From: Candidatus Omnitrophota bacterium
GTDB lineage: Bacteria > Omnitrophota > Gorgyraeia > Gygaellales > Profunditerraquicolaceae
Direction of reading: 5' to 3'
DNA: 36,850 nt
Assembly (NCBI GenBank): GCA_028713155.1
Contig: JAQTPA010000008.1
Location: 1 to 36,850, forward strand
The notes under the pieces were generated by a model, which did no database searches, was not told where the DNA came from, and saw only the letters and a program-made list of their open reading frames with translations. The stretch's first letter is position 1, and every line of letters starts with the position of its first letter. The translations under genes were made by a program, and so were the position numbers. Positions 29,573 to 33,659 of the stretch are shown in pieces.

Positions 29573-30748
29573 ATGCACATAGATTCGAGGTTAGCCAGTC
29601 GCTTAAAAAATGTAAAACCTTCATCAACCCTCGCGATCACCTCCAAGGCTAAAAAATTAAAGTCCGAAGGGTTTGATATAATAACCCTGGCCGCAGGCGA
29701 ACCGGATTTTGACACCCCGGATTTCGTTAAGTCAGCCGCGATTGAAGCGATAAACTCCGGCTTTACCAAGTACACCCCTACTACAGGCATCCCAGAATTA
29801 AAAAAACTAATCTGTGAAAAATTCAAAAAAGATAATTCCCTGGAATATGCTCCTTCCCAGGTTGTTGTTTCCTGCGGGGCAAAGCATAGCATATTCAACG
29901 CGCTTTTTGTCTTAGTTAATCCCCAAGACGAAGTGCTTATTCCCTCTCCCTACTGGGTAAGTTATTCTGAGATGGTTAATCTCTGTGACGGAAGGCCCAG
30001 GTTCGTACAGACTTTGGCCGGGAATAATTTTAAAATAACCCCCCAGGAATTAGCCGCGAATATAACCGCAAAGTCAAAACTCCTTATTTTAAACAGCCCG
30101 GCGAACCCGACAGGCTGCGTATATACACAGGAAGAGCTAAGGCAGATTTCGGAAATCTGTGTAAAAAATAAGCTCCTCGTCATCAGCGATGAGATCTATG
30201 AGAAACTTATTTATGACGGCTTAAAACATGCCTCCCTGGGGAGCTTAAACAAAGAAATCTATGATTTGACGATTACCGTAAATGGTTTCTCCAAGAGCTT
30301 TTCGATGACCGGCTGGCGCTTGGGTTATTTGGGCGCTCCTAGTGATATAGCGGAAGCGATTTCGCGCCTGCAGGACCACTCAACCTCCAATCCCAATTCT
30401 ATCGCCCAGAAGGCCGGGATAGCCGCGCTCGGCGCCCCGGAAAGCTTCTACCAAAAAATCTGCCAGCAGTTTCAGGAAAGAAGGGATTATTGTATTGCCA
30501 GGATTAAGGCCATGCCTAAAATAACGCCAGTAGTCCCCGAAGGGGCTTTCTATATTTTTTGCGATATATCCAAGACAAAGCTTGGCGCCATGGAAGTCGC
30601 TAACCAGTTATTAGAAAAAAAATACTTGAGCGTTATTCCCGGAGACGGTTTTGGGGAGGATCATTATATTCGTATAAGCTTTGCTGCCAGCCTGGATAAC
30701 CTTAAAAAGGGAATGGATAGGCTGGAGGAGTGGCTAAAAGATGGGTAA
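29573..30748 (+). CDS. PLP-dependent aspartate-type aminotransferase (class I/II)
   Basis: A 391-residue fold-type I aminotransferase, closest by pattern to the aspartate aminotransferases of subgroup I-beta. The start LKNVKPSSTLAITSKAKKL is typical. Other landmarks are GEPDFDTPD (42-50), LNSPANPTG (173-181), SDEIYE (205-210), and the PLP lysine K241 in NGFSKSFSMTGWRLGYL with R249. It likely interconverts aspartate and 2-oxoglutarate with oxaloacetate and glutamate, in line with the malate and isocitrate dehydrogenase genes downstream, though the exact substrate cannot be read from sequence. It starts 15 nt after rplQ and overlaps the next gene by 8 nt. Confidence 0.9.
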   Translation: MHIDSRLASRLKNVKPSSTLAITSKAKKLKSEGFDIITLAAGEPDFDTPDFVKSAAIEAINSGFTKYTPTTGIPELKKLICEKFKKDNSLEYAPSQVVVSCGAKHSIFNALFVLVNPQDEVLIPSPYWVSYSEMVNLCDGRPRFVQTLAGNNFKITPQELAANITAKSKLLILNSPANPTGCVYTQEELRQISEICVKNKLLVISDEIYEKLIYDGLKHASLGSLNKEIYDLTITVNGFSKSFSMTGWRLGYLGAPSDIAEAISRLQDHSTSNPNSIAQKAGIAALGAPESFYQKICQQFQERRDYCIARIKAMPKITPVVPEGAFYIFCDISKTKLGAMEVANQLLEKKYLSVIPGDGFGEDHYIRISFAASLDNLKKGMDRLEEWLKDG

Positions 30749-31994
30749 AACAATAGCTGAAAAGATACTGAGCAGCCACGCCGGAAAAGAGTTAAAGGCC
30801 GGCGATTTTGCCGTATGTAAAGTCGATTTTACCTTTGGCCAGGACGGAACAAGCGCGATTATCATTGACCGGATCAAAGAATTGGGAGTAAAACAGTTAA
30901 AAACTGATTTTTGCATGGTGATCGACCATAGCGCACCTTCCCCAAGCGAAGGGGTCTCGCGGGTGCATAAAAAAATGCATAATTTTGCCAAGGAATTTAG
31001 CCAGCGGATTTTTGATATAGGCTGCGGCGTATGCCACCAGGTAATCCCGGAATCGGGGAAGGCTTTACCCGGTAATTTAATCCTGGGCGCAGATTCACAT
31101 ACCTGCACCTATGGCGCTTTAGGTGTTTTTTCTACGGGCGTGGGCTCAACAGACCTGGCAATTGCCCTGGCCACAGGCAAAAATTGGTTCAAGGTTCCGG
31201 AGACTTTTAAGATTATCGTAAAAGGAAAAACTCCTAAAGGTATATTCGCTAAGGATATCATCCTGGATATTATCGGAAAAGTGGGTGCTGACGGAGCGAC
31301 TTACAAGGCAATTGAATTTTGCGGCCCGGTAATCGATAAGATGGATATGGACGGCCGTTTAACCATGTGCAATATGGCAGTAGAGATGGGAGCTAAGTGC
31401 GGTTTTATGCCGCAGGATAAAACTACTTTTGCCTGGCTAAAATCCCATGGTGTAAAGCGTGCGGCTATTAAACCTGTAAGCGCGGATAAAGATGCTGCAT
31501 ATGAAAAAATATTGGAAATCGATATAGCCAAGCTTAAAAGCCAGGTTTCCCTGCCGCATAGCGTAGATAAGGTAAAGCCGGCAGCTGAACTAAAGGGATT
31601 AAAAATCAATGAAGCATTTTTAGGCACCTGCACAAATGGAAGGTTGCAAGATTTAAAAATAGCTGCTAAGATACTTAAAGGAAGGAAAGCGGCTCCGGGC
31701 GTAAAGCTTATTATCGCCCCCAGTTCGCGTTCGATTTTACTGGAAGCCATAAAGTTAAAATTGATAAATATTTTTGTCGAGGCAGGCGGGATAATCCTGG
31801 CTCCGGGATGCGGGCCCTGCGTGGGCACGCATAACGGCATACCTGCGGACGGAGAAGTAGTTATCTCTACCGCCAACAGGAATTTTAAAGGCAGGATGGG
31901 TAACCCCAGCGCTTTTATATACCTGGCTTCTCCGGCAACTGTAGCTGCATCAGCAATCAAGGGATATATTACAGACCCGAAGAGTTTTCTTTAA
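30741..31994 (+). CDS. leuC: Aconitase-superfamily hydro-lyase large subunit (LeuC/HacA type)
   Basis: A 417-residue large subunit of a two-subunit 4Fe-4S hydro-lyase, the short LeuC2/homoaconitase-A class. The cluster ligands are C297 (LGTCTNGR), C357 and C360 (PGCGPCVGTHNG). Other motifs are IDHSAP (61-66), LGADSHTCTYGALG (115-128) and GRMGNPSAFIYLASP. By family it would be called 3-isopropylmalate dehydratase, but the partner dehydrogenase at 33661 has isocitrate-type residues and no leuA or leuB is nearby, so citrate/isocitrate is a likely alternative substrate. Two in-frame stops (TAATAA) end it. pilT separates it from its small subunit. Confidence 0.88.
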   Translation: MGKTIAEKILSSHAGKELKAGDFAVCKVDFTFGQDGTSAIIIDRIKELGVKQLKTDFCMVIDHSAPSPSEGVSRVHKKMHNFAKEFSQRIFDIGCGVCHQVIPESGKALPGNLILGADSHTCTYGALGVFSTGVGSTDLAIALATGKNWFKVPETFKIIVKGKTPKGIFAKDIILDIIGKVGADGATYKAIEFCGPVIDKMDMDGRLTMCNMAVEMGAKCGFMPQDKTTFAWLKSHGVKRAAIKPVSADKDAAYEKILEIDIAKLKSQVSLPHSVDKVKPAAELKGLKINEAFLGTCTNGRLQDLKIAAKILKGRKAAPGVKLIIAPSSRSILLEAIKLKLINIFVEAGGIILAPGCGPCVGTHNGIPADGEVVISTANRNFKGRMGNPSAFIYLASPATVAASAIKGYITDPKSFL

Positions 31995-32115
31995 TAATTT
32001 GGTCTTATGAGTTACACCCGACGTTGATCGAAACGCCCGACGCATAATAGGTATTGCGTCGGCGTGCGCTTGTGCGCAAATTGCGTCGGTGCGCCCTTCT
32101 GGGCAGGGAGGAATG
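31995..32115 (+). promoter_or_regulatory. Hairpin- and repeat-rich leader of pilT
   Basis: This is the longest gene-free stretch of the window. It contains three hairpins: CCGACGCA/TGCGTCGG (32037-32044/32055-32062, 8 bp); TGCGC/GCGCA (32065-32069/32074-32078, loop TTGT); and GCCC/GGGC (32093-32096/32101-32104, loop TTCT), the last just before the Shine-Dalgarno GGGAGG (32106-32111). CCCGACG also occurs at 32017-32023. No T-run follows any stem, so a Rho-independent terminator is unlikely. It could hold a promoter, a translational control element or a small dispersed repeat; none can be decided here. Confidence 0.5.
32054..32089 (+). repeat. Direct repeat TTGCGTCGG with inverted copies upstream
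   Basis: TTGCGTCGG occurs at 32054-32062 and again at 32081-32089, each followed within two bases by TGCGC. The reverse complement core CCCGACG occurs at 32017-32023 and 32036-32042. Four arms of the same motif in about 75 bases therefore form nested inverted repeats. Whether this unit recurs elsewhere in the genome cannot be seen from this window. Confidence 0.6.
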
Positions 32116-33162
32116 ATGGAGATAAGGGAATTGCTTCTGATGTGTATTGAGAAGGGTGCTTCGGATTTACATATAACCGAAAGTGAGCCTCCTATCTTGC
32201 GTATTGACGGTTCGCTCAAGCGCACGAACCTTCCTGCCCTGGATAAACATGAGCTGAAGAAGATGATTTATGGCATACTGAATAATTCCCAAAAAGAGGT
32301 TTTTGAAAGAGAGTTGGAGCTGGATTTTTCTCTCGCCCTTCCGGATTTAGACAGGTTCCGGACAAATATACATATGCAAAAGGGTGCCCCGGAAGCGGCA
32401 TTCAGGCGTGTGCCGCTGGAAATACCTACGGTTGAAAAGTTGGGCCTTCCGCAGATTATCAGCGACCTGGCGCGTAAGCCTAACGGCTTAGTTTTGGTTA
32501 CCGGGCCTACCGGTATGGGTAAAACTACTACCCTGGCTACAATGATTGACCTGATTAATAAAGAAAGAGAATGCCTGATTATGTGCATAGAAGATCCGAT
32601 TGAATTTGTCTTTAAGAATAGTAAGAGTATTATCAAACAAAGAGAGGTTTATTCTGATACGCGTTCTTTTGCCGCGGCCCTGATGCACACGCTGCGCCAG
32701 GACCCCAACGTCATCGTAGTCGGTGAAATGCGTGACCTGGAAACTATTTCTACGGCTCTTACCGCTGCAGAAACCGGGCACTTGGTTTTAGCTACTTTGC
32801 ATACTCCGGACGCGCCGCAGACTATTGAAAGAATTATCGATGTCTTTCCTCCGCATCAACAACAGCAGGTGAAATTGCAGCTGGCTGATTGCCTGCAGGG
32901 GGTAGTTTCGCAATTGCTGCTCCCGCATTCTTCAGGCAAAGGCAGGGTCCTGGCTACAGAAATAATGATCGGTACCTCGGGGATAAGAAACCTTATCCGC
33001 GAACAGGAGATTGAACAGATCCCTACGCTTATGCAAACAGGCTCGCAATACGGGATGAAGACTATGGATAAATGCTTGAAAGAGCTGACCCAGAGAGGCG
33101 ATATTACCCTGGACGTTGCGCTCTCTAAAGCTAAAAACGCGGATGAATTCAGGCAGCTATGA
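32116..33162 (+). CDS. pilT: Type IV pilus retraction ATPase PilT
   Basis: A 348-residue hexameric secretion-type ATPase, normal PilT length. The N-terminal PAS-like domain has EKGASDLHITESEPP. The C-terminal RecA-like domain has Walker A GPTGMGKT (130-137), the Asp box around E159-D160, Walker B with E204 (VVGEMRD) and the His box GHLVLATLHT (221-230). GIRNLIRE (289-296) is the near-canonical AIRNLIRE motif diagnostic of PilT rather than PilB. It depolymerises pilin to retract type IV pili. ATG 32116 is preferred to ATG 32113 and GTG 32089 because of Shine-Dalgarno spacing. It sits between leuC- and leuD-like genes and overlaps the latter by 4 nt. Confidence 0.94.
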   Translation: MEIRELLLMCIEKGASDLHITESEPPILRIDGSLKRTNLPALDKHELKKMIYGILNNSQKEVFERELELDFSLALPDLDRFRTNIHMQKGAPEAAFRRVPLEIPTVEKLGLPQIISDLARKPNGLVLVTGPTGMGKTTTLATMIDLINKERECLIMCIEDPIEFVFKNSKSIIKQREVYSDTRSFAAALMHTLRQDPNVIVVGEMRDLETISTALTAAETGHLVLATLHTPDAPQTIERIIDVFPPHQQQQVKLQLADCLQGVVSQLLLPHSSGKGRVLATEIMIGTSGIRNLIREQEIEQIPTLMQTGSQYGMKTMDKCLKELTQRGDITLDVALSKAKNADEFRQL

Positions 33163-33659
33163 AATTAACCGGGCAGGCTTTAAAATTAGGCGATAATATT
33201 AATACGGATTTCATTATTTCGGGAAGGTATAAATTTGCCATTACCGATATGAAAGAACTGGCTAAGCATATCATGGAGGATATTGACCCCGGATTTGCGG
33301 CAAAGATAAAGCCGGGTAAATCTATGATTATTGCCGGCAATAATTTCGGTATGGGTTCCTCGCGCGAACAGGCGCCCCTGGTTATAAAAGAAGCCGGGGT
33401 TGTAGCGGTATTGGCTAAGAGCTTCGCGCGTATTTTCTACCGGAATGCGTTTAATATCGGGCTAGCCTTGGTAGAGACAGATACGGATAAAATCGGCGAG
33501 AACGATCTGATAGAGATAAACCTGGACAAAGGGATTGCCAGAAATACGTCAAAAAATATTGACCTTACCTTAAAGCCGTTCCCCAAATTTATGCAGGAGC
33601 TGCTTAGGGAAGGCGGTATAGTAAATTATTACCGTAAACACGGAGAGCTAAAAGTTTAA
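33159..33659 (+). CDS. leuD: Aconitase-superfamily hydro-lyase small subunit (LeuD/HacB type)
   Basis: A 166-residue swivel-domain subunit, the short LeuD2/homoaconitase-B class. Typical features are GDNINTDFII (11-20), NNFGMGSSREQAP (61-73) and AKSFARIFYRNAFNIGLALV. It completes the active site of the LeuC-like protein at 30741. The substrate-recognition loop after GRY, which is usually a YL-x-x sequence in isopropylmalate and homoaconitate enzymes, reads Y24-K-F-A, so the substrate is uncertain. The start overlaps the pilT stop (ATGA), and the next gene follows after one base, placing it with isocitrate dehydrogenase. Confidence 0.88.
   Translation: MKLTGQALKLGDNINTDFIISGRYKFAITDMKELAKHIMEDIDPGFAAKIKPGKSMIIAGNNFGMGSSREQAPLVIKEAGVVAVLAKSFARIFYRNAFNIGLALVETDTDKIGENDLIEINLDKGIARNTSKNIDLTLKPFPKFMQELLREGGIVNYYRKHGELKV

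Follow-up and report, generated by a model that had tools for sequence, protein, structure and literature searches.

The hairpin cluster upstream of pilT very probably consists of two nested copies of a small palindromic element of Omnitrophota, a mobile and non-autonomous piece of DNA similar to REP or MITE sequences. In the best reading of its positions, the element prefers Shine-Dalgarno sequences (SDs), which it meets with a defined polarity, and its own loop. The DNA analysed, here called the window, is a stretch of 36,850 nucleotides.

Nested hairpin units upstream of pilT

We verified by sequence inspection the repeats and hairpins that the initial annotation had described before pilT. 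Both CCCGACG arms (32017 and 32036), both TTGCGTCGG arms (32054 and 32081) and the two small stems, TGCGC-TTGT-GCGCA at 32065-32078 and GCCC-TTCT-GGGC at 32093-32104, were confirmed, the second small stem being separated by one base from the SD of pilT, GGGAGG (32106-32111). The 92 nt from 32014 to 32105 correspond to an inner segment of 46 nt (32033-32078) and to outer parts that, once rejoined, also give 46 nt. As judged from the sequence, the arrangement is that of one 46-nt unit inside the loop of another 46-nt unit, with the following features:

30741..31994, forward strand: leuC/aconitase-family large subunit, the upstream gene, with its stop 19 nt 5' of the element
32014..32032, forward strand: outer unit, 5' part (hairpin A 5' arm 32015-32023, with one bulged C, plus the start of the loop)
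32033..32078, forward strand: inner unit, a full 46-nt copy in the same orientation, in the loop of outer hairpin A; E-value 2.3e-14 with the covariance model R1, a value to be read with the fact that this unit is one of the 11 sequences behind the model
32034..32064, forward strand: inner hairpin A (arms 32034-32043 and 32056-32064, loop 32044-32055)
32065..32078, forward strand: inner hairpin B, TGCGC-TTGT-GCGCA
32079..32105, forward strand: outer unit, 3' part (remainder of the loop, hairpin A 3' arm 32084-32091, hairpin B 32093-32096 / 32101-32104)
32106..32111, forward strand: pilT SD, GGGAGG, directly 3' of the unit
32116..33162, forward strand: pilT, PilT/PilU family type 4a pilus ATPase (TIGR01420, 463.6 bits for a cut-off of 319.1), with ATG 32113 as an alternative start

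In the window, pilT is flanked by leuC- and leuD-type genes (30741-33659), beside a long ribosomal-protein region. The folding energy of the leader was ordinary (z of -1.0, with 37 of 200 shuffles folding at least as well), and the MFE z-score is uninformative for this element. With at most one mismatch, TTGCGTCGG occurs 8 times in the window for 7.14 expected, which is the chance level; the cluster stands above chance because the whole unit recurs, in its own genome and at non-pilT sites in relatives. The Rfam search gave no match at the gathering score for the pilT leader, and at E<=5 the sole match was an unrelated CRISPR-repeat inside pilT, with none in the leader.

The pilT locus was then compared between relatives. 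In three congeners (G001, G005 and G006; loci L025, L024 and L023), the outer unit alone is found at this position, after a similar 5' flank, and the inner unit is missing. The outer copy thus seems to predate these species, and the inner copy seems to be an addition in the lineage of the window. At this locus the outer stem reads CGACGC/GCGTCG in L025 and CGGCGC/GCGCCG in L024, a compensatory change on both sides of the stem. The junction varies further in other relatives, with a single unit (L063), nested units (L057) or several units side by side (L055, by eye), and within the genus g13 one unit precedes pilT in G212 versus two nested units in G150. A leuC-like gene also precedes pilT in several relatives (by eye). 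The initial annotation had proposed, among others, a REP-like dispersed element that arrived with pilT. The dispersed nature of the element stands, and its arrival with pilT does not, as pilT follows leuC without any unit in several more distant relatives, such as L027, L040 and L061 (upstream gene identified by eye), and the element precedes many unrelated genes.

Architecture and distribution of the unit

The unit was delimited by a DNA search of 59 genomes (its own and 58 relatives) with the leader, followed by alignment; besides pilT leaders, this search returned matches of the leader region alone at unrelated places in relatives, for example with 89% identity over 79 nt in G001. The unit is composed of a hairpin A, whose 5' arm carries one bulged C and whose loop is conserved, and of a hairpin B, with a short stem and a loop of mostly 4-6 nt, usually followed by AGGAG and a start codon. 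It is 41-49 nt long, typically 45-47 nt, and contains no gene. The covariance model R1, built from 11 units, was ended before the SD so that adjacency to the SD could be tested.

When the own genome was searched by pattern or by plain DNA comparison, the matches beyond the window were weak ones only, and the unit would have passed for a single copy, a verdict that the covariance model overturned. Plain searches miss the copies because their stems differ in sequence yet keep their pairing. R1 matched at least 10 places in this genome, with 11 matches at E<=1, the eleventh being the outer part of the copy in the window. At nine of these sites the unit precedes an SD and a start codon, including those of rpmE-, rpsA-, hisB- and aroC-like genes (named by eye from their first residues), and the tenth is inside pgk. 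Recurrence in the genome and compensatory change among relatives, whose absence the initial annotation would have taken as a refutation, were both observed.

The dispersal of the unit was established by R1 at several taxonomic levels, the genome counts being lower bounds with 22-150 candidates scored per genome. Units were found in all 7 genomes of the genus and, at E<=0.1, in at least 45 of the 59 genomes of the family (own genome included in both counts). At E<=0.001, at least 61 of 285 Omnitrophota genomes, own included, carried them (41 from the own family, 3 from the rest of the order and 17 from the rest of the class), and the other 224 gave no R1 match at this threshold. Among 22 genomes not labelled Omnitrophota, one had a single weak match (E 0.003). 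A close search gave 22-52 matches in each of four genomes of the family and 42 in one genome of another family. In G156 (L332, L335, L336, L346-L349), we noted also a divergent subfamily, AGGCCCTCCGC...GCGGAGGCCT with ACCC...GGGT, located away from SDs and often next to other hairpins.

For the analysis of positions, 293 cmsearch rows (17, 37, 108, 102 and 29) were reduced to 283 by removal of 10 in overlapping loci, and to 273 by removal of 10 duplicates. These 273 non-redundant matches, 196 in the own family and 77 outside, include some of the 11 sequences behind R1 and are not independent, since nested copies have their leader in common and relatives have sites in common. The copies are largely the best-scoring ones, except in G150 and G212, of which 580 kb and 180 kb, respectively, were searched whole. 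Site classes were set by script rules applied to 400 nt downstream and 200 nt upstream. A first classification of the 273 matches (SD and start 127, start only 75, SD only 23, neither 48) was discarded, as it missed short genes and nested copies.

Mobility, nesting and position of the copies

We compared the congeners G150 and G212, in which the compared stretches contain 27 distinct element sites (model matches). Five sites are occupied in both genomes and 14 (4 and 10) in one of them, the element being absent from the other; one site is unclear, its upstream side being non-colinear, and 7 had no counterpart found. Presence and absence of the element at equivalent sites of two congeners is thereby established. 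Clean empty sites were read in the leaders of rpsK-like, dnaK-like and rpsG-like genes (named by eye from their first residues). Among the 14 'absent' sites, two carry element-like remnants (by eye) and for two further ones (223833 and 241110 of G150) the upstream flanks fail to meet closely. No target-site duplication was seen by eye in the filled and empty pairs of this palindromic unit. For 174 units from 10 genomes, likeness was 0.716 within genomes versus 0.643 between genomes, a difference reached by none of 2000 label shuffles. In the own genome the units are no more alike to each other (0.607) than to those of other genomes (0.615), so the own copies look mostly old.

The copy inside pgk (L184:1501-1542; own contig C30, 24318-24359) is a 42-bp in-frame unit that adds a 14-residue insert. 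None of the 11 relatives compared at this site, which include five congeners, has the insert, and its position corresponds to a gap in two solved homologues that were aligned. It is the one clear case of in-frame insertion in a coding sequence, others having been read by eye only.

Insertion of the unit in its own loop, as in the window, was found in double and in places triple form. The script returned 36 nested candidates, of which L175:1414, L329:1501 and L388:1040 look doubtful by eye. Nested and tandem units share one direction (by eye). Triple nesting, a unit in a unit in a unit, was read by eye in L211, L215 and L235 (G067), and two adjacent units in opposite directions, the sole inverted pair noticed, lie at L216:1443-1546 (G066). 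A second, perfect 20-bp palindrome, CCTGCCTGCCGGCAGGCAGG, is present in the 3' arm of the unit in three genomes (L183:225, L268:3343 and L325:1463, the last being the same as L350:1055); it occurs elsewhere too, with 8 matches in the examined loci, two of them at the same place.

The position of the copies relative to SDs was determined on both strands. Within the own family, an SD at 6 nt or less followed by a start codon was present on the sense side in 105 of 196 copies, and within 100 nt in 41 more (146 in total), with no SD-start within 100 nt in the other 50. In the antisense direction, an SD-start was present within 12 nt in a single copy and within 100 nt in 12 more (13 in total), so that the polarity towards the SD is clear in this family. 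Outside the family (n=77), the sense side gave 13 copies with an SD at 6 nt or less and a start, 15 more within 100 nt and 49 with none, and the antisense side gave 4 at up to 12 nt and another 9 at up to 100 nt. SD targeting is therefore not universal, given these 49 copies with no sense SD-start within 100 nt.

In the 106 family copies of the SD class, the end of the unit is at 0 nt from the SD core in 82 and at 1 nt in 15 (97 of 106). The upstream stop (by script, n=96) ranges from 44 nt inside the unit, 15 being well inside, to 88 nt before it. As the distance from unit to SD is nearly constant and that from stop to unit varies widely, the SD, rather than the gene end or the spacer, is what the unit is anchored to. 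The empty sites that were read keep an SD, which makes the SD a neighbour and not a part of the unit. On the opposite strand, the adjoining 7 nt contain CTCC in 104, AATT (own loop) in 20 and neither in 72 of the 196 family copies, and CTCC in 12, AATT in 8 and neither in 57 of the 77 others; as SD adjacency already implies CTCC, this count is no independent proof of targeting.

The genes that follow the units include operons of housekeeping genes, such as those of ribosomal proteins, tuf and dnaK (names by eye), and we saw, by eye, no common gene function among the targets. Other units end where tRNA-Gly (L203, L259, L175 and L205) and tRNA-Arg (L333 and L334) genes begin, or no more than about 10 nt away; in some of these, hairpin B and the tRNA have bases in common. 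Three FMN riboswitches (RF00050; L312:1462-1627, L194:1417-1581 and L174:1337-1582), from three genera and two families, carry an antisense unit in a variable part of the aptamer, either as an old insertion long kept or by repeated insertion at one spot. L173 and L377 resemble these cases but are below the Rfam cut-off. In G228 and G034, units adjoin terminator-like sequences (by eye). Targeting of GGAG fails to explain the pgk, tRNA-Arg and FMN-riboswitch sites.

We examined whether stem pairing points to DNA or to RNA in 242 distinct units (of 244), with 13 pairs each and with arms chosen by Watson-Crick pairs only. The 3146 stem pairs comprised 3031 Watson-Crick, 37 G.T, 40 A.C and 38 other pairs, and the arms came in 41 (A) and 50 (B) different sequences. 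On the evidence of these arms, pairing is maintained through sequence change. G.U is not favoured over A.C, unlike the expectation under selection on the transcript. This pattern fits a palindrome kept as DNA, or a spread so recent that few pairs broke, and it may leave room for some effect on the mRNA.

These data bear on the reading of the unit as a cis-acting RNA device that enhances translation, stabilises the mRNA or signals its processing and is maintained by selection just upstream of SDs, for which dispersal would be the means and function the reason why copies persist there. The marked bias to the sense orientation and to SD-adjacent sites in the own family, the conserved loop and the conserved pairing would be expected of such a device, and the copies close to or at the 5' ends of tRNAs would also agree with a processing signal. 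We nevertheless consider it unlikely, as G.U pairs do not exceed A.C pairs (37 vs 40), sites differ between congeners, the target genes have no common function (by eye), copies occur within a coding sequence too and, in antisense, within FMN riboswitches, and the MFE of the window leader is ordinary.

Proposed mechanism and comparison with known systems

A mobile DNA palindrome remains our preferred reading, and the following mechanism would account for it. The element would move as DNA, possibly single-stranded, folded into hairpins, with an enzyme supplied in trans, perhaps an HUH/Y1 enzyme of the REP-transposase kind. Its polarity would reflect a target that lies near CTCC (complementary to GGAG) on the template strand, and its own loop would be a second preferred target. 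Copies before genes would be tolerated because the SD stays intact. We propose tentatively, as a possibility short of probable, that the SD complement (CTCC, template strand) is the insertion target, which would lead to homing to translation starts across the genome in one orientation, and to recursive stacking with the own loop as second target. The SD bias could come either from targeting by the mechanism or from retention by selection. For the enzyme, all 25 genomes tested carried PF01797, 8 of them having no unit at E<=0.1, and no unit was found at E<=1 in the flanks of 20 PF01797 genes (63849 bases; 20 of the 67 places listed). A link between the unit and the corresponding protein, RAYT, is kept as a possibility.

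No published description of the element was found, by title or start of the abstract, in a literature search that covered mostly open-access papers; by text search, 'repeat' does not appear in the main text of an Omnitrophota survey (PMC10066038), nor do 'repeat' and 'palindrom' in PMC13153191. An SD-oriented palindrome in housekeeping operons would insert hairpins into 5' leaders throughout the genome. The element allows a direct test of whether leader hairpins alter translation inside operons, offers a test of which enzyme moves orphan palindromes, and accounts for 'structured leaders' in Omnitrophota that might pass for riboswitches. If targeting of the SD complement is true, a transposable element would be domesticating or parasitising the commonest short signal of bacterial mRNA; if the unit is no more than a REP-like repeat of the ordinary sort, it remains a mobile family within the phylum for which we found no description.

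The closest comparison is with REP and REPIN sequences, which are associated with RAYT (TnpA-REP) enzymes (PMC3733652, PMC3116915, PMC8266576). Like these, the unit is a short, palindromic and often bulged hairpin, present in high copy, non-autonomous, and able to sit in genes and to supply stops. It would be rather improbable, in our opinion, that the unit is a REP of the described GTAG/CGTC super-families, moved by RAYT and so far unreported in Omnitrophota. The small bulged palindrome, the many copies, the PF01797 proteins in 25 of 25 genomes tested and the in-frame and stop-supplying copies, such as those described for REPs in PMC3733652, would agree with it. Section 15 of the same paper places REPs between co-directional genes near the 3' end of the upstream ORF, with a variable downstream distance. 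The placement found here is the reverse, the unit being anchored to the downstream SD (unit to SD of 0-1 nt in 97 of 106 copies, stop to unit of -44 to 88 nt, n=96). The tag differs also: of the 273 matches, 9 have GTAG near the 5' end, 3 have CGTC, and 2 have GTAG at the 3' end on the other strand. In RAYT systems the RAYT gene is flanked by repeats, whereas the 20 PF01797 loci have no unit near them. Finally, the unit is made of two hairpins of about 46 nt in total, and is nested or in tandem as mostly direct repeats, not as inverted doublets (one inverted neighbour pair, L216). We did not file the unit as a REP because it differs in tag, RAYT flank and placement. To our knowledge, none of the REP, REPIN, ERIC, BOX and RPE sequences is in fixed orientation to ribosome-binding sites.

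A riboswitch or regulator site specific to pilT, the RNA switch of the initial annotation, is highly improbable: the cluster lies directly before pilT, and type IV pilus genes are often controlled by riboswitches, but the unit also precedes rpmE-, rpsA-, hisB- and aroC-like genes in the own genome (by eye), is missing before pilT in several relatives and differs between congeners, its leader has no Rfam match, and neither a common target function nor an excess of G.U pairs was found. For paired binding sites of a regulator, also proposed by the initial annotation, no indication was seen.

The mobile palindromic element that we favour has likenesses to several other systems. It is non-autonomous and mobile in the manner of MITEs, 14 sites differing and 5 being common to two congeners. 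MIRU of mycobacteria have a preference for gene junctions and for orientation, and we know of no hairpin pair, self-nesting or SD anchoring in them. In Neisseria, the REP2/CREN repeat ends in a ribosome-binding site before start codons; by this description the unit differs, as here the SD adjoins the unit and is present in empty sites. The likeness to MIRU is one of description, as interspersed short units; those are 40-100 bp long, and differential translation within an operon is proposed as their function in PMC2734929. The Rickettsia palindromic elements, given as about 150 bp and often in genes in PMC10969869, are likewise palindromic mobile units; they are found in-frame in coding genes, of which the unit gives one clear case, pgk. 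Our unit is of 42-46 nt and in its own family lies mostly in leaders.

A further analogy may lie with the IS200/IS605 type. Its single-strand transposition involves recognition of hairpins and a fixed orientation to a short target, with no target duplication. By analogy, the unit would have in common with it a fixed target on one strand, the hairpins and the absence of visible duplication, and TnpA-REP is presented as kin to IS200/IS605-type transposition in PMC8266576. In its behaviour, the element works like a miniature element of the REP/MITE type.
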